A DNA stretch of 64,000 nt from Novosphingobium sp. (GTDB lineage: Bacteria > Pseudomonadota > Alphaproteobacteria > Sphingomonadales > Sphingomonadaceae): the NCBI GenBank assembly GCA_004211435.1, contig SECS01000001.1, positions 1-64,000 of the forward strand, given 5' to 3'. This document shows positions 234 through 37,391 of the stretch, piece after piece (position 1 is the stretch's first letter; each line of letters opens with the position of its first letter). Both the position numbers and the translations under genes were made by a program. The notes beneath the pieces are model-generated. The model was not told the origin of the DNA, did no database searches, and was given only the letters and a program-made list of their open reading frames with translations.

Positions 234-2078
234 TCAGTCGGCCAGCACCTTGCTCCGCACGCTGAGCCCTTCGAGATCGCCCTTGTCGCGCCAAGCCTGG
301 AGCATGGCCTGGAAATCGTGCCAGCCCGGGCCCCACTGGCGGAACAGCGCCCACTTGGGCTTGGCCTCGCCCTCATTGTTGAAATAGCTCGGCGTGCATT
401 CGAGCGCGAAGGCCGAATTATCGGGCTCCATCGATTCGAACCGCGCGACATAGGCATCCTGCGCCTCCCGGGTGGTCTCGACCACGTCGGCGCCGCGCGC
501 CAGAGCGGTGGCGACGATATGGGCGATGTGCTCGCCCTGGCGGCCGATCATCTCGGTCACGCTCGAATTCAGACCGCCCTGGATGTAGCCCATGAAGAAC
601 TGGTTCGGGAAACCGCTGGTCATCGTGCCGTGCAGGGTCAGCGGGCCATCACGCCAGTGATCGTAGAGCGACTGGCCGTTCTGCCCCGCGATCACCGGGA
701 TGCCCCAGCGACGCTCGAGATCGCTGGTCACCTCGAAGCCCGAGGCGAAGATCATGCAGTCGACTTCTATCTCCTCCCCGTTGTGGAGGAAGCCCTTCTC
801 GGTCATCGCCTCGAGCCCCTGGGTGGCCGAGACGTCGATCAGCTTGACGTTGGGCTGGTTGAACGCGGGATAGTATTCGTCGTTCGACAGCGGCCGCTTG
901 CAGAGGAAGCGGAACCAGGGCTTGAGCGCCTCGGCCGTATCCTTGTCGGTCACGATCGATTCCACGCGCTGGCGCATTCGCTCCATCACGCGATAGTCCA
1001 TCACCTCGCGGCGGGCCATGAACTCCTCGAGGCTGAGTTCGGGATAGCCCTCGGCATCGAGCTCGGCCTGCATGTTGCGCGCGATCTCGGTCCAGATGTC
1101 GCAGATCAGGTCGGGCTCGCCAGGCGCGAAGAACTCCATCGCCGCGCGGTGGAAATTGTCCTGGCGCGCGCGCTGCCAGCCGGGTTCGAGCGAGGCCGCC
1201 CATTCCTGGTCGGTCAGCGGATTCGAACGCTCGTCGATGTTCGAGGGCGTGCGCTGGATGACGTAGAGCTGCTTGGCGTACTTCGCGAGGTAGGGCACCG
1301 CCTGGACCGCGGTCGCGCCCGTGCCGAGGATGGCGACGCGCTTGTCCTTGAGCTTGTCGAGCACGGGCGCTGCGTGGCTGCCGCCAGTGTAGTCGTAGTC
1401 CCATCGCGCGGTGTGGAACATCTTGCCCTTGAAGCTGTCGATGCCCTTGATCCCGGGCAGCTTGGGCATGTTGAGCACGCCGCAGGCCATGACCACGAAG
1501 CGCGGAAGGAACTCGTCGCCGCGGTTGGTGCCCACGCGCCAGCGGCCGATCGCATCGTCCCACTTGAGCGAGGTGATCAGCGTGTGGAACACGCCCTTGT
1601 CGGCGAAGCCGAAAGTCTCGGCGATGCGCTTGCAGTGGGCATAGATCTCTGCGCCGTCGGAGAACTTCTTCGAGGGCATCCAGCCGGTCTCTTCGAGCAG
1701 CGGCAGGTAGCAATAGGCATCGTTGTCGCACTGGATGCCGGGATAGCGGTTCCAGTACCAGACCCCGCCGAAGTCACCGGCGTGGTCGATGTTGCGGAAG
1801 TTCGTCACGCCCTGCTGGGTCAGGTGATAGGCCGCGAGCAGCCCCGAGAAGCCGCCGCCGAGGATCAGCACGTCGAGCTCGTCGAACATCGGCTCGCGCG
1901 GTTCGATGTCGCGGTGCGGGTCGGTCGCGTAGAGATCCTGCATCTCGCCCGAGACCTTGACGTATTGCTCCTGCCCGCGGGTCTGCATGCGCTTGTCGCG
2001 CTCGGCCGCATACTTTTCACGGAGCGCAGGGATGTCGAGCGTGGCGGCGTCAGGGACGTTGGTTTTCAGACAGGTCAT
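234..2078 (-). CDS. Baeyer-Villiger-type flavin monooxygenase (cyclohexanone/steroid monooxygenase-like)
   Basis: This 614-residue cytosolic protein should insert one oxygen atom next to a ketone using FAD and NADPH, giving an ester or lactone. An N-terminal FAD Rossmann motif, LILGGGFSG, sits near residues 71-79. The family fingerprint FxGxxxHxxxW is present as FKGKMFHTARW near 216-226, and a second Rossmann motif, AILGTGATAVQ, follows near 250. The length is that of the longer cyclohexanone or phenylacetone monooxygenase class. The ATG at 2078 was chosen because GGGAG lies five bases upstream; upstream ATGs at 2090 and 2111 lack this. A small unknown gene is divergent. The SMP-30-like lactonase gene to the right could open a lactone product, but that link is inference. 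The substrate is unknown. Confidence 0.9.
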   Translation of the reverse strand: MTCLKTNVPDAATLDIPALREKYAAERDKRMQTRGQEQYVKVSGEMQDLYATDPHRDIEPREPMFDELDVLILGGGFSGLLAAYHLTQQGVTNFRNIDHAGDFGGVWYWNRYPGIQCDNDAYCYLPLLEETGWMPSKKFSDGAEIYAHCKRIAETFGFADKGVFHTLITSLKWDDAIGRWRVGTNRGDEFLPRFVVMACGVLNMPKLPGIKGIDSFKGKMFHTARWDYDYTGGSHAAPVLDKLKDKRVAILGTGATAVQAVPYLAKYAKQLYVIQRTPSNIDERSNPLTDQEWAASLEPGWQRARQDNFHRAAMEFFAPGEPDLICDIWTEIARNMQAELDAEGYPELSLEEFMARREVMDYRVMERMRQRVESIVTDKDTAEALKPWFRFLCKRPLSNDEYYPAFNQPNVKLIDVSATQGLEAMTEKGFLHNGEEIEVDCMIFASGFEVTSDLERRWGIPVIAGQNGQSLYDHWRDGPLTLHGTMTSGFPNQFFMGYIQGGLNSSVTEMIGRQGEHIAHIVATALARGADVVETTREAQDAYVARFESMEPDNSAFALECTPSYFNNEGEAKPKWALFRQWGPGWHDFQAMLQAWRDKGDLEGLSVRSKVLAD

Positions 2079-8738: not shown

Positions 8739-8763
8739 AACGGCACAGCCAAGGAAAAGTTCC
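8739..8763 (-). promoter_or_regulatory. EcfG-type promoter of the Crp/Fnr gene
   Basis: On the minus strand the sequence reads GGAAC, 16 bases, CGTT, an exact match to the alphaproteobacterial general-stress sigma factor consensus. It ends 43 bases before the ATG at 8696. The stretch 8697-9014 is otherwise gene-free. It also holds an inverted repeat CTATGT/ACATAG at 8798-8819 of unknown meaning. Confidence 0.75.
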
Positions 8764-32820: not shown

Positions 32821-33366
32821 TCAGACCTTCTCGGGCTCGACGATGATCGTGTCGCGCTCGGGGTCGAGCAATCGCGCGAGCTGATCGCGGGCGCGGGCGA
32901 CGCGGCTCTTCATCGTACCGACCGCGCAATCGCTGATCTTGGCCGCTTCCTCGTACGTGAAGCCGCCGGCGCCGACGAGAAGCAACGCTTCGCGCCGTTC
33001 GGGCGAAAGCTTCATCAGCGCCACTTCCATGTCCGAGAGATGCAGCGGCGCTTCCTGATCGGCGTCCATCACCAGCAGGCGCTCGGCCGAATCCGGATCG
33101 TAGTCGGCCTGATGGCGGTTGCGGCGGAGTTCGCTGAGGAAATGATTGCGCAGGATCGCGAAGGTCCAGGCACGCATGTTGGTCCCGGGCGTGAAACGCT
33201 CGCGCGCGGTCCAGGCCTTGATCGCGGTTTCCTGCACAAGGTCGTCGGCAAAGTCGGGACGGCCGCAAAGGCCGCGCGCGAAGGCGCGAAGGTGCGGCAG
33301 AACGGCGAGCAGATCGCGCTTGAAGACCTCGTCGTCGTGAGCGATCGAGCCGTCAGTCACGCTCAT
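32821..33366 (-). CDS. ecfG: General stress response ECF sigma factor EcfG
   Basis: This 181-residue sigma factor directs RNA polymerase to GGAAC/CGTT promoters. Region 2 contains LRAFARGLCGRPDFADDLVQ near 26-45 and NMRAWTFAILRNHFLSELRR; region 4 contains FTYEEAAKISDCAVGTMKSR near 135-154. The ATG at 33366 overlaps nepR by 14 bases, so anti-sigma and sigma are translationally coupled. The neighbours nepR, sensor kinase and phyR make the assignment firm. In unstressed cells NepR holds it inactive; phospho-PhyR releases it. An EcfG-like promoter in front of nepR suggests autoregulation. Confidence 0.93.
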   Translation of the reverse strand: MSVTDGSIAHDDEVFKRDLLAVLPHLRAFARGLCGRPDFADDLVQETAIKAWTARERFTPGTNMRAWTFAILRNHFLSELRRNRHQADYDPDSAERLLVMDADQEAPLHLSDMEVALMKLSPERREALLLVGAGGFTYEEAAKISDCAVGTMKSRVARARDQLARLLDPERDTIIVEPEKV

Positions 33367-33556
33367 TTTTCGCCCGGTCGAGCTTTTTGAGCAGATCGTC
33401 AAAGCTGTCGGGCAGGGGTTCGTGCACGACGGAGTTGTAGAGCTGCCTCAGGCCATCGGCCCAGCCCGGCTCCGCGCGATCGCGTGCCGGTTCCGAACGC
33501 ACCTGACTAGGCTTCCGGTCATTCATTCCCGGTGGCTGGCTCAAAACAAACTCCAT
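33353..33556 (-). CDS. nepR: Anti-sigma factor NepR
   Basis: This 67-residue protein has the NepR core GLRQLYNSVVHEPLPDSF near 37-54, then DDLLKKLD, the two helices that wrap around EcfG or the sigma-like domain of PhyR. The N-terminus is disordered. The ATG at 33556 was chosen (AGGA nine bases upstream); ATG at 33526 is an alternative. Earlier codons would run into the promoter. It overlaps ecfG downstream. Confidence 0.9.
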   Translation of the reverse strand: MEFVLSQPPGMNDRKPSQVRSEPARDRAEPGWADGLRQLYNSVVHEPLPDSFDDLLKKLDRAKNERD

Positions 33557-33626
33557 CTTGCAAGGTCCTATTTCCTTCCAATCCGCCGGAGCGTCAAGCA
33601 CACCGCTCATTGCGACAGTCAGCAAT

Positions 33627-33651
33627 GGAACTTTCGACACTGGACATGGTT
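33627..33651 (+). promoter_or_regulatory. EcfG-type promoter of the CHASE/HWE kinase gene
   Basis: GGAAC, 16 bases, GGTT on the plus strand, 88 bases upstream of the kinase ATG. It overlaps the minus-strand box almost exactly. Confidence 0.5.
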
Positions 33652-33653
33652 CC
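33629..33653 (-). promoter_or_regulatory. EcfG-type promoter of nepR-ecfG
   Basis: GGAAC, 16 bases, AGTT on the minus strand, 73 bases upstream of the nepR ATG. It differs from consensus only in the first -10 base. Its -35 box is the complement of the plus-strand -10 region. Confidence 0.55.
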
Positions 33654-33738
33654 ATTGCCGACGAAAGCTTGCCAAGTAGTCGAAGGGGGGCACTTGCGCA
33701 GGTCCGTGACCGTCATCCCCATTTGTATTTGAGGCGTC

Positions 33739-35394
33739 ATGGATAAAGCGCTGCTCGCCCGTGTCGAAAAACAGGCGTGGTTTCACCGCTACCCACGCGG
33801 CTGGCCGCTCCTCCTGTTCCTGCTCGTCGCCGCGGGTACGCTTCTCAGCGTCATGGCCATAGAGCGCGCTGAGGCCGAGCGCCGCCAGATCGAGCTCGAC
33901 CGCAACGTCACCGAGCTCGCATCCGGTCTGCAGCGTCGCGCCTCTGAGAACATCGCCATCCTGCGCGCGGGCGCGGCGCTTTTCACCGCCAACGACCGCG
34001 TGTCTCCCGAAGCCTTCGAGGAGATCGCCAAGGGCCTCTACAGCGACAATGACTACCACGGCTCGATGGGCATCGCCTGGGCCCGCTGGACCCCGGCAGA
34101 CGACTTCGCGCGCTTCGAAAAGGCAGTCCAGGATGTCGTGGACCCCGCTTACCACGTAAAGCCGGGGGTCCAGCCAGGGCGCGGAGTCTATGTGCCGATC
34201 GTCTATGTCGAACCCAAGACCGACGCCAACCGTGCCGCGGTCGGCTTCGACATGTATTCGGAGCCTGTCCGCCGCGAAGCGATGAACCTCGCCGCCGCGC
34301 TGGGGCAGCCGGTGGCTTCGGGCCTCGTCCACCTGGTGCAGGATCGCGGTGCGCCCGAAGCCAAGGGATTTCTGATCTACATGCCGGTCTTTGCCGGGCA
34401 AGGCGTAGAGCGCCGCGTGCGCGGCTTCGTCTACAGTCCCTTCCGCGCGCGCGAGTTCCTCGGCTCGGCGGTCGAGTTGGTGCGCGATCGAGGCGTCGAG
34501 ATTGCAATCTACGATGGCATGCGCCGGCCCGACCGGCTGCTCGCAGCGCGACTGATCGATGGCGACAATGCGGTCTCGCTCGATCGGCGGATCGTCGTTG
34601 CCAACCGGCCCTGGATCGTCAGCGTCAGCTTCAAGCGCGCACGGACCTTGTCGGCGCTGTCGCGCGCGACCCTGGTGTTCGGCGCCGTGCTCGGCGTGTT
34701 GGTCATGTTCATCGCGCGGCTGATCACCAAGCGCTCGGCCGAGGACCGGATCGTGCTCGAATGGTTCAGCGACCAGTCGGCGATCCGCAACTCGCTGACC
34801 CGCGAACTCAATCACCGCGTGAAGAACACGCTGGCCAATGTCCTGTCGATCGTCGCGCTGACGCGGCGGCGATCGGTTGACCTCGACGATTTCGCCGAGA
34901 GCCTGACCGGCCGTATCCGCGCCCTTTCGGCAACGCACGACCTGCTGTCGCAGAGCGACTGGACCGACGCGCCGGTTGCCGAGATCGTCCGCAGCGAACT
35001 CGCGCCTTACATGGGCGAGAAGGACGGACACATCGACATGGCCGGGCCGGCGATCGACCTCGCGCCCAACGACGCGATGTCACTGGGGTTGGCGATCCAT
35101 GAACTGGCGACGAACGCCGCGAAATACGGCGCGCTGAGCACGTCGGAGGGGCGCGTTTATATCGAATGGCGGCTGATTGCGCCCGATGTCGCCGAACTGC
35201 ACTGGCGCGAGGCTGGCGGCCCGCCCGTGATCGCGCCGAAGAAGCGCGGCTTCGGCCGTGATCTGCTCGAGAAGATCGTGGCCCACGAACTCGGATCGAA
35301 GGTCGACCTGCGCTTCGATCCCGAAGGTGTCGAATGCACGCTGCAGGTCCCCGTGCGCAAGCTGACGAGCTTCGCGCTCCGCTCGACGCGATAG
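33739..35394 (+). CDS. CHASE-domain HWE/HisKA_2 sensor histidine kinase of the general stress response
   Basis: This 551-residue inner-membrane kinase has a membrane helix at about 23-40, a periplasmic CHASE-type sensor domain (about 75-250, with the YHGSMGIAWARWTPA and GFVYSPFRAREF patterns) and a second helix at about 305-325. The cytosolic kinase core has His359 in LTRELNHRVKN, HELATNAAKYGAL, the HWE-type WREAGG and GFGRDLLEKIV. It lies divergent from nepR-ecfG and convergent with phyR, the position of the PhyR kinase or phosphatase in related genomes (PhyK/PhyP type). All kinase residues look intact, so net kinase activity is possible; direction cannot be settled by sequence. The ligand is unknown. 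Confidence 0.88.
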   Translation: MDKALLARVEKQAWFHRYPRGWPLLLFLLVAAGTLLSVMAIERAEAERRQIELDRNVTELASGLQRRASENIAILRAGAALFTANDRVSPEAFEEIAKGLYSDNDYHGSMGIAWARWTPADDFARFEKAVQDVVDPAYHVKPGVQPGRGVYVPIVYVEPKTDANRAAVGFDMYSEPVRREAMNLAAALGQPVASGLVHLVQDRGAPEAKGFLIYMPVFAGQGVERRVRGFVYSPFRAREFLGSAVELVRDRGVEIAIYDGMRRPDRLLAARLIDGDNAVSLDRRIVVANRPWIVSVSFKRARTLSALSRATLVFGAVLGVLVMFIARLITKRSAEDRIVLEWFSDQSAIRNSLTRELNHRVKNTLANVLSIVALTRRRSVDLDDFAESLTGRIRALSATHDLLSQSDWTDAPVAEIVRSELAPYMGEKDGHIDMAGPAIDLAPNDAMSLGLAIHELATNAAKYGALSTSEGRVYIEWRLIAPDVAELHWREAGGPPVIAPKKRGFGRDLLEKIVAHELGSKVDLRFDPEGVECTLQVPVRKLTSFALRSTR

Positions 35395-35581: not shown

Positions 35582-36379
35582 TCAGCCCAGCGGGCGGCTC
35601 GTACCGAAGAACAGCGCCTGGCTGATCGCGGTGCGCACCGTCGATTCCTGGAAAGGCTTGGTAACCAGGTAGGTCGGCTCGGGCCGCTCACCGGTCAACA
35701 GCTTTTCGGGATAGGCGGTGATGAAGATCACCGGCAGGTCACCGAACTTGAGCAGATCCTCGACAGCGTCGATACCCGAGCTGCCGTCGGCAAGCTGGAT
35801 GTCGGCAAGAACGAGCCCGGCGGGATGCTCGGAGAAAATCTCAAGCGCCTGGCTGCGCGTGGCAGCCGTACCGATGACGCGATGGCCGAGATCCGTGACG
35901 AGGTTTTCGAGCTGCATCGAGATCAAAGGTTCGTCCTCGATGATCAGGACGTCGGTCGCAGTCTCGCTCTCGATTTCGTTGATCGCCTGGACGACCATAG
36001 CGTCGACCTTGTCGACCGATGAGTCGAGGATGATCGCAGCTTCCTCCGAGGTGAAATCCTCGAGCGTCGTCAGCAGCAGCGCCTGGCGATGTGCCGGCGT
36101 GACATGCGACAGACGAGTCTGCGCAAGCTGTTCATGTGCGCCGCCTTCATCCACCTCGGCCACGGCAGCCTCGACATGGCCGGTCGACCAGATGCGGTTG
36201 AACGCCGCGTAGAGCGAAACGCGGCTCTCGCCGATCTGGTCGAGCAGGTCCTTGTCCGCCAACGCCGCCTCGAGCGTGGCGCGCACATAGGTGTCGCCCG
36301 AAGTCTGTGATCCGGTCAGCGCGCGTGCATAGCGGCGCAGGTAGGGAAGTTGGACCGCAATCTGGTCAGCCATCGACAT
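35582..36379 (-). CDS. phyR: General stress response regulator PhyR
   Basis: This 265-residue protein has an N-terminal EcfG-mimicking sigma-like domain (about 1-135; LPYLRRYARALTGSQTSGD and LTTLEDFTSEEAAIIL) followed by a receiver domain (about 142-260). The receiver has Glu148/Asp149, phosphoacceptor Asp193 in VLADIQLADGSSG, Thr in FITAYPEKLLTG and Lys241 in TKPF. Phosphorylation exposes the sigma-like domain, which binds NepR and frees EcfG. The DNA-binding surface is not used. The ATG at 36379 has GAGG six bases upstream. A minus-strand GGAAC-N16-CGTC box lies 105 bases upstream, and an intrinsic terminator follows the gene. Confidence 0.94.
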   Translation of the reverse strand: MSMADQIAVQLPYLRRYARALTGSQTSGDTYVRATLEAALADKDLLDQIGESRVSLYAAFNRIWSTGHVEAAVAEVDEGGAHEQLAQTRLSHVTPAHRQALLLTTLEDFTSEEAAIILDSSVDKVDAMVVQAINEIESETATDVLIIEDEPLISMQLENLVTDLGHRVIGTAATRSQALEIFSEHPAGLVLADIQLADGSSGIDAVEDLLKFGDLPVIFITAYPEKLLTGERPEPTYLVTKPFQESTVRTAISQALFFGTSRPLG

Positions 36380-36483
36380 GGAATACCTCAACAAGAATAC
36401 ACGGGTTTAGAAAGGTATAGTCAAAGAGCACCGGCCATTTGGGCTGTTCACTGGCGCGTTTGGCATCCTCTCCTAAATCCCTT

Positions 36484-36508
36484 GACGTCCTAACACAGCG
36501 TCTGTTCC
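36484..36508 (-). promoter_or_regulatory. Possible EcfG-type promoter of phyR
   Basis: GGAAC, 16 bases, CGTC on the minus strand, one mismatch in the -10 box, 105 bases upstream of the phyR ATG. Confidence 0.4.
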
Positions 36509-36538
36509 GCGCCTCGCGAAATATTTTTCGCCCGTCGC

Positions 36539-36563
36539 GGAACCAAAGGCCTGGGATCGGGTT
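36539..36563 (+). promoter_or_regulatory. Possible EcfG-type promoter facing away from phyR
   Basis: GGAAC, 16 bases, GGTT on the plus strand, the same -10 variant as the sensor-kinase promoter. No plus-strand protein gene follows: the next gene lies on the opposite strand, ending at 36846. It may drive the candidate small RNA described next. Confidence 0.4.
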
Positions 36564-36569
36564 TTGCCA

Positions 36570-36660
36570 GTATCACCACTGGCCCTCCCGTACCCACCCC
36601 CCGCAAACCGGTGGTGACCCGATCCCGAGGCCTCCGTTCTCCACCGAGTGCGGAGGCCTC
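36570..36660 (+). ncRNA. Candidate EcfG-dependent small RNA with C-rich loop
   Basis: The 466-base gap 36380-36845 has no credible protein gene. Downstream of the plus-strand EcfG-type promoter the sequence folds into TCACCAC/GTGGTGA (36573-36579 with 36611-36617), whose loop contains CCCTCCCGTACCCACCCCCC. A perfect 10-base hairpin GAGGCCTCCG/CGGAGGCCTC follows at 36627-36660. An exposed C-rich loop could pair with Shine-Dalgarno sequences, as shown for the Caulobacter stress RNA GsrN. Homology is not demonstrated, and no U tract is seen. Confidence 0.35.
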
Positions 36661-36845
36661 AAGGATTCTGAGGCCATGGCCATCGCTCCAAGCGTTCGCG
36701 GATCGGGTAAAATCATCTCGCTCTTCGTACCGATATCGGGCGCCATCATGGCGCTTCCGATCAGGCTGCAAAACGCCTGAACGAGCGGTCGGTTCCGATT
36801 GCGCTTTGTTTTCAGCGCAGGAATGTCACGAGCGAGCGAAAGCCC

Positions 36846-37391
36846 CTATGGGATGTTGCGCGCGCGCAGGTTGGTGAGCGGTCGGCGGTAGGACGGATCC
36901 GATCCGTCGCGCGCCGGTGCGCCGTTGCCGTAAAGATCGGGTACTTCGGCGAAGGGAATCGGAATGCTGGGCAGCAGTCCCGCCCATTCGATCGCATTGG
37001 TGCGCAATGCGATCTTCCATGAATCGCCGCGCCGCTCGAACCTGTCGATGTAGCGTCCGCCCGCCTGGACGAGGCTCTCGTCCTTGTTGCGCGCGACAAA
37101 GAGGTAATAGGTTTCGACGTGCGCCGTATCGCCATCGAGGTCGATGGTCGTGTTGAGCAGCGCATGGTGCGTCAGGATCTGCCCCTGCTCGTGCATCGGA
37201 AAGGCCCAGTCGGCGCATTCCGACGCGAGCCCGACGAAAGGCCCCGCCGCCATTTCGGCGTCTTCGTGGAAGGCCGAGAGGTAGAGCGCGCGATCGAGCC
37301 GGTCCATGCCGCGACTGAATCGCGCAAGCGCCTCGGAAATGTCCTGCTTGTCGAGCAGCGCCGCGAGCTTAGCGTCCATTGCCATATCCAT
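36846..37391 (-). CDS. SnoaL-like (NTF2-fold) protein
   Basis: This 181-residue protein has the SnoaL_4/NTF2 layout: helical start DAKLAALLDKQDISEALARF, MDRLDRALYLSAFHEDAEM near 29-47, then a cone-shaped sheet with GGRYIDRFERRGDSWKIALR near 111-130. Such folds act as isomerases, hydratases or dehydratases or as small ring-hydroxylating beta subunits. It overlaps the SDR gene by 23 bases, and is the last of three co-directional genes SnoaL-SDR-SnoaL. The start is uncertain among ATGs at 37391, 37385 and 37379. Confidence 0.75.
   Translation of the reverse strand: MDMAMDAKLAALLDKQDISEALARFSRGMDRLDRALYLSAFHEDAEMAAGPFVGLASECADWAFPMHEQGQILTHHALLNTTIDLDGDTAHVETYYLFVARNKDESLVQAGGRYIDRFERRGDSWKIALRTNAIEWAGLLPSIPIPFAEVPDLYGNGAPARDGSDPSYRRPLTNLRARNIP

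Follow-up and report, generated by a model that had tools for sequence, protein, structure and literature searches.

A conserved RNA gene with an exposed C-rich loop beside phyR in Novosphingobium and its relatives, and its resemblance to the stress RNA GsrN

The general stress response (GSR) locus of Novosphingobium sp. contains a gap of 466 bases between phyR and a SnoaL-like gene, which raises the question of what, if anything, this gap encodes. The locus lies within the first 64,000 nucleotides (nt) of contig SECS01000001.1 (assembly GCA_004211435.1, forward strand), the stretch analysed here and referred to as the window. The original prediction, made from these letters alone, proposed that the gap holds a small RNA (sRNA) that is driven by the stress sigma factor EcfG and carries a C-rich loop. 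The comparisons described below indicate that the gap almost certainly contains a genuine, conserved RNA gene, and its features suggest that the product is probably an EcfG-driven, trans-acting sRNA of the GsrN kind that works through this loop. The promoter and the parts of the RNA are as follows:

36539-36563, plus strand: EcfG-type promoter GGAAC-N16-GGTT of the small RNA (sequence motif; GGAAC kept at the matching place in relatives)
36570-36669, plus strand: small RNA gene, inferred start about 36570 and inferred end 36660-36669 (covariance models R1 and R2, two-hairpin fold)
36573-36617, plus strand: 5' hairpin, UCACCACUGG (36573-36582) paired with CCGGUGGUGA (36608-36617) (helix 1, paired in 98.6% of cells)
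36583-36607, plus strand: exposed C-rich loop CCCUCCCGUACCCACCCCCCGCAAA, 25 nt, the proposed seed (unpaired in the ensemble)
36618-36626, plus strand: conserved linker CCCGAUCCC between the hairpins, 9 nt, a possible second seed (alignments A1 and A2 show little or no variation in many of its columns)
36627-36660, plus strand: terminator-like hairpin GAGGCCUCCG...CGGAGGCCUC (12 of 15 pairs with two-sided changes)

Read from 36570, the RNA folds into two hairpins with a free energy of -47.2 kcal/mol (z -6.2; none of 200 shuffled sequences was as stable), in agreement with the two stable hairpins originally described. The two motifs that had been placed in the first loop, CCCTCCC (36583-36589) and a run of six Cs (36597-36602), are both found there. 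The element had been drawn from 36539; the promoter does begin at this position, but the conserved RNA starts at about 36570. A fold starting at 36539, in which promoter bases pair, was ruled out, as the relatives in the alignment do not conserve its upstream arm GGGATCGGG. The exposed C-rich loop in the 5' part, one of the features of GsrN-like EcfG-regulated sRNAs, is a general property of the RNA. The most C-rich 10-mer in 169 RNAs has a median unpaired probability of 0.90 (lowest 0.80), and between RNA positions 9 and 60 of 152 distinct RNAs CUCCC occurs in 149, C6 in 146 and CCCUCCC in 127 (a set from which two terminator-only matches and one eroded copy, L351, L363 and L364, were left out).

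The breadth of this conservation was established by several searches. BLAST with 36500-36720 matched 56 of 195 Novosphingobium genomes, and 38 of these 56 matches start at query positions corresponding to 36558-36573, close to the predicted transcript start. The covariance search and alignment across Novosphingobium that had been proposed as a check were carried out with a model (R1) derived from the 30 best loci of the genus, promoter excluded; this model detected the RNA in 116 of the 195 genus genomes and in 151 of 397 genomes of the family, representing 40 of 96 genera. A second model (R2), built from all 58 RNAs (30 of the genus and 28 of other genera), matched 145 of 396 genomes of the order, all of them in family f1 (the number of genomes of other families among the 396 was not in the output), and 12 of 385 genomes of the class, four inside the family and eight outside. 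As the whole-genome model searches scored only 10-21 candidates per genome, absences are soft. The window sequence itself matches R1 (E 2.0e-19) and R2 (E 7.3e-15) at 36570-36668, having contributed to both models. A pattern scan returned at least 80 named loci, and among the matches listed 68 fit R2 at E 6.3e-11 or better; the other 12 of the 80 listed fail R2 and were taken as chance. Novosphingobium, Erythrobacter, Qipengyuania, Porphyrobacter, Croceicoccus, Altererythrobacter and Tsuneonella are among the titles of the 68, which include metagenome bins and a few loci named only to order or phylum, and records titled E. vulgaris and E. sanguineus (the latter a bin) carry the RNA. The eight matches in class genomes outside the family (E 2e-5 to 0.04) were rejected; their loci contain no PhyR and no GGAAC within 60 nt upstream, and several appear to be no more than terminators. 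In L197 a second match was likewise discarded as the terminator behind a putative superoxide dismutase gene, taken so from the look of its product. A plasmid collection contained no match to the RNA.

The structure is conserved along with the sequence. Structure played no part in building alignment A2, which comprises the 58 RNAs. Under the RNAalifold consensus with one added pair, 96.9% of its pair cells form, compared with 88.5% in shuffled alignments. Sliding the partners reduces pairing to 32-50%, a control that favours the named structure because this was taken from the consensus of the same alignment. Two-sided changes are seen at 14 of 24 pairs (shuffled mean 8.7), mostly in helix 2 (12 of 15 pairs), while helix 1 is less variable (2 of 9). 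The original prediction had named a lack of conserved stem pairing and loop in relatives as evidence against it; the covariation in A2 and the loop counts given above show that both are conserved. All 58 aligned RNAs have the terminator-like hairpin, which is unsurprising as the model includes it, and in 22 of the 28 loci of other genera, as read from the aligned loci, a U tract follows it.

The promoter consists of GGAAC at 36539-36543, a 16-base spacer and GGTT at 36560-36563, confirming the plus-strand motif of the original prediction. Such a motif is not rare in the window, where GGAAC-N15-18-SGTT has 9 matches against 2.8 expected (largest shuffle 8), and the case for the promoter therefore rests on its conservation and not on its presence. 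In all 30 closest loci of the genus GGAAC-N16/17-NGTT stands exactly 9 nt ahead of TCAC(C/T). The best 28 family matches in other genera all have GGAAC at the matching place, the -10 element there being CATT. Among the matches listed, GGAAC occurs at -29 to -33 in 68 of 68 named loci, and it lies 28-38 nt upstream in 43 of 46 further model matches, a count from which 16 secondary rows were left out. The RNA thus shows another feature of GsrN-like EcfG-regulated sRNAs, a near-consensus EcfG promoter directly upstream.

The RNA is located inside the GSR locus, and so shares with GsrN-like sRNAs a position close to the phyR/nepR/ecfG genes. The gap is bounded by the following genes:

35582-36379, minus strand: phyR (start about 36379), encoding the anti-anti-sigma response regulator of the general stress response (Pfam PhyR_sigma2, PhyR_sigma-like, Response_reg)
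36846-37391, minus strand: SnoaL-like gene, its stop end at 36846

Because both genes are on the minus strand, the plus-strand promoter at 36539 faces no gene, consistent with the original view of the gap. PhyR is close by in all 30 closest genus loci and present in all 28 best loci of other genera; among the 68 named loci of the matches listed it is divergent upstream in 59, and the sequence of the other nine loci reaches only 76-889 nt upstream. The predicted placement beside phyR therefore holds in the window and is conserved in relatives. Across the 195 genus genomes, 114 have the RNA and PhyR, two the RNA only, 26 PhyR only and 53 neither (six weak second R1 matches dropped), giving a Fisher p of 2.3e-25 that ignores descent. 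On shared contigs 109 of 112 RNA-PhyR pairs are divergent, with a median gap of 210 nt. As for the two genomes with the RNA alone, the match in G183 appears to be only a terminator; the copy in G010 (L363:1503-1605, minus strand) sits where a contig ends and is eroded at GGAAC and in the 5' arm, and no PhyR was found in that genome at E 1e-40. The region upstream of PhyR was searched again in 21 of the 26 genomes with PhyR alone (of the rest, G018 and G035 were covered separately and G086, G174 and G180 were left out), revealing the RNA by R2 in four and a further form in five. At one locus of another genus, L073, a Crp-family regulator gene (585-1400, plus strand) that is absent from the window lies between phyR and the RNA, and L374 looks alike.

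Sequence comparison of 28 of the 68 listed named loci divided the RNA into two forms. The form present in the window, found at seven loci, all in Novosphingobium, has a loop without CCCGUCC, a tail that mostly reads CCUCA at the stem and no U tract. The other form, whose loop contains CCCUCCCGUCC and which carries a U tract, occurs at 21 loci, comprising all 13 of other genera and eight of 15 in Novosphingobium. As both are found in Novosphingobium, the split runs through the genus. The further form, located about 1.5 kb from phyR at five PhyR loci, has the promoter, the loop core CCCCUCCCGCCCCCCCG and the terminator on an unlike stem, GUGCAA(C/U)GG...CCUUGCACGUG (one base different in L360). 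Its copies, found by an anatomy scan, are:

L350:1550-1641, plus strand: further-form copy
L353:1614-1703, plus strand: further-form copy
L354:1626-1715, plus strand: further-form copy
L355:1521-1619, plus strand: further-form copy
L360:1580-1678, plus strand: further-form copy

The scan that detected these copies matched none of 49 control loci and six of 460 shuffled loci. The further form keeps promoter, loop core and terminator, indicating that the loop persists while the stem changes; unlike stems carrying one C-rich loop core offer a natural experiment on which parts of the loop are essential. A looser scan (eight Cs in 12) matched seven of 21 class PhyR loci and one of 49 controls; its matches were mostly unconvincing, although that in L430 is this RNA, and it was not used as evidence. 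At a phyR locus of family f70 (L432, plus strand from 2301) an EcfG-type promoter is followed by a hairpin exposing GACGCCCCCCCGACA, which is close to the complement of the GsrN target motifs listed in the available part of PMC5869019; this element is perhaps a GsrN relative.

The known system that the RNA most invites comparison with is GsrN of Caulobacter (Tien et al. 2018, PMC5869019). According to the accessible text of that paper, GsrN is about 100 nt long, has been shown to depend on the EcfG-type sigma factor, and has a 5' exposed loop with six tandem Cs and a 3' terminator; it is processed to a stable 5' isoform, with the full-length form being Hfq-dependent. Its locus is near GSR genes typically in the Caulobacteraceae, but not in C. 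crescentus. The same text describes GsrN-like RNAs of rhizobia, recognised by an EcfG site, a position at the GSR locus and a C-rich 5' loop, several of which had transcriptome evidence. The RNA described here resembles GsrN in anatomy and position, having an EcfG-type promoter (with dependence predicted), a GSR-gene neighbourhood, a 5' C6 loop, a 3' terminator and a length of about 100 nt; orthology is not claimed. It differs in its loop core, CCCUCCC(G), where most members have a U, in that katG pairing of the loop is not supported (see below), and possibly in an antisense overlap with the phyR leader in the window's group. With the rhizobial RNAs it shares all three signs, but the evidence here is comparative alone, and the likeness is one of description. 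Among the 385 class genomes R2 found nothing beside PhyR outside family f1, a search that scored about 10 candidates per genome and in which the C. crescentus GsrN sequence itself was not compared. From what can be seen of their reports, SisA-D of Caulobacter (PMC12559287) and NfeR1 of rhizobia (PMC10746234) are other sRNAs with other genes and promoters, and are set apart by description; the likeness lies in the CUCCC core of the present RNA, which could pair with the sites described there.

By analogy with GsrN, stress would act through PhyR and NepR to free EcfG, which would start an RNA of about 95-100 nt from GGAAC-N16-GGTT. This RNA would fold such that the 5' hairpin presents the C-rich loop and a terminator hairpin stands at the end, and a short seed in the loop would pair with several mRNAs at G-rich stretches in their Shine-Dalgarno regions or leaders. 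The pairing would change the translation or stability of these mRNAs and so amount to a post-transcriptional arm, the part that GsrN plays in Caulobacter. In this scheme we infer transcription, EcfG dependence, mRNA pairing and the direction of regulation from sequence. If this is correct, sphingomonads and erythrobacters would gain a post-transcriptional arm of their general stress response, a component that the available part of the 2018 survey did not show for them; Erythrobacter litoralis, an outgroup there, is stated in that part to have no apparent gsrN-like gene (PMC5869019). The RNA has no match in Rfam 15 at the gathering threshold, with no window match at that level and, at E up to 10, only five sub-threshold matches to unlike families (E 0.1 to 7.8). 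No earlier account of it was found in the literature on sphingomonad and Erythrobacter small RNAs and stress response, a search that mostly left out subscription papers, and the accessible portion of an ECF review (PMC8103513) does not mention it.

Several observations weigh against an sRNA of the GsrN kind. The evidence for the RNA comes from sequence comparison, and the window's own terminator-like hairpin lacks a U tract. GsrN acts on katG, whose mRNA, according to the part of PMC5869019 available, begins with seven nucleotides complementary to the GsrN loop. Here a katG-type domain is present in 12 of 21 genomes, the window's own included, and 17 katG regions displayed no consistent complementary site (each gene was assumed to begin at the earliest start codon of its open frame, in some cases too far upstream, and transcript starts are not known). 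In the same genome 75 15-mer loop complements with up to three mismatches were counted, the RNA itself included, against 69 for the reversed pattern; in 59 family genomes such complements with up to two mismatches exceeded the reversed pattern in four and did not in 55, a test that is blind to seeds as short as seven bases. Ten PhyR loci of other clades gave no model match below E 0.05 and no anatomy match. Finally, two of the matches outside the family, L271:1501-1583 and L272:1501-1578 (both plus strand), have a C-rich-loop hairpin (CCCCCCCUCCC in L272) and a terminator with neither GGAAC upstream nor PhyR nearby, showing that such hairpins occur apart from the stress system; these two are perhaps unrelated C-loop sRNAs. 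As a separate observation, a katG-type gene lies on the window's contig (G000:C45:82905-84818), outside the window and about 46 kb beyond the small RNA.

Other explanations of the element need to be weighed against a trans-acting sRNA. A plus-strand open frame (36439-36780) spans it in the window, as would be expected if it encoded a small protein, but none of the three reading frames is open across all 152 distinct RNAs, their lengths fall in all classes modulo 3 and the sequence changes keep base pairs, making this the most improbable of the alternatives. The element might instead be the transcribed leader or attenuator of a plus-strand gene, and the promoter and terminator-like hairpin would suit such a role. 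The next gene in the window is, however, on the minus strand, and in L073, the sole other-genus locus examined for this point, the gene that follows the RNA likewise runs in the opposite direction. The presence of a terminator-like hairpin in all 58 aligned RNAs also speaks against a leader, although the model itself contains that hairpin. This reading is very unlikely.

More serious is a role in cis, which is raised by a second promoter-like site downstream of the RNA:

36772-36796, minus strand: EcfG-type promoter-like GGAAC-N16-CGTT, directed antisense through the small RNA toward phyR (motif; like-oriented sites in relatives)

If this site drives phyR, the leader of about 388 nt would contain the complement of the whole small RNA. 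Similar sites recur among the 30 closest loci. A minus-strand GGAAC lies 17-18 nt past the RNA in 19. In 23, a minus-strand GGAAC-N15-18-NNTT is found no more than 170 nt from the RNA, whereas shuffling gives 0.7 such loci on average (largest 4). In the 18 loci with exactly 17 nt the spacer sequence varies (mean identity 0.50 over 12 nt). The RNA could then be chiefly the cis-antisense partner of the phyR leader, with the duplex limiting phyR in a negative feedback or the leader soaking up the RNA. This is unlikely, since RNA and loop are conserved where the sites are missing: none of the 28 loci of other genera has one within 170 nt, and in the named loci GGAAC is at +17 in five of seven with the window's form, while none of 21 with the other form has GGAAC within 30 nt. 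In addition, the -10 element of 16 of the 19 antisense sites is CTTT, off consensus and overlapping the tail CCTCAAAG, and seven of the 30 loci also have a site nearer phyR, which in six of the seven is the small-RNA promoter region read backwards. The window's site lies farther from the RNA than the 17-18 nt sites of its relatives. The phyR leader may nevertheless be antisense to the small RNA in the window's group. A tentative combination is that, in this group of Novosphingobium, the sRNA and phyR mRNA, each transcribed under EcfG, overlap as an antisense pair, and that the RNA has both stress mRNAs as targets in trans and the phyR leader as a target in cis. The missing U tract would then be a trace of the pair, as in most relatives the antisense -10 element sits there. 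Such an arrangement would let one locus both extend and damp the general stress response, and the antisense promoter would bear on feedback on phyR.

The remaining genes of the stress-response locus are located on the other side of phyR:

32821-33402, minus strand: ecfG-type sigma factor gene (Pfam Sigma70_r2 and Sigma70_r4_2, position beside nepR)
33353-33655, minus strand: nepR, anti-sigma factor (Pfam NepR)
33739-35394, plus strand: CHASE-HWE histidine kinase gene

An EcfG-type GGAAC-N16-GGTT at 33627-33651 (plus strand) faces the histidine kinase gene at 33739, and six further EcfG-type sites occur in the window, at 8739, 13662, 21094, 22233, 31652 and 63456.
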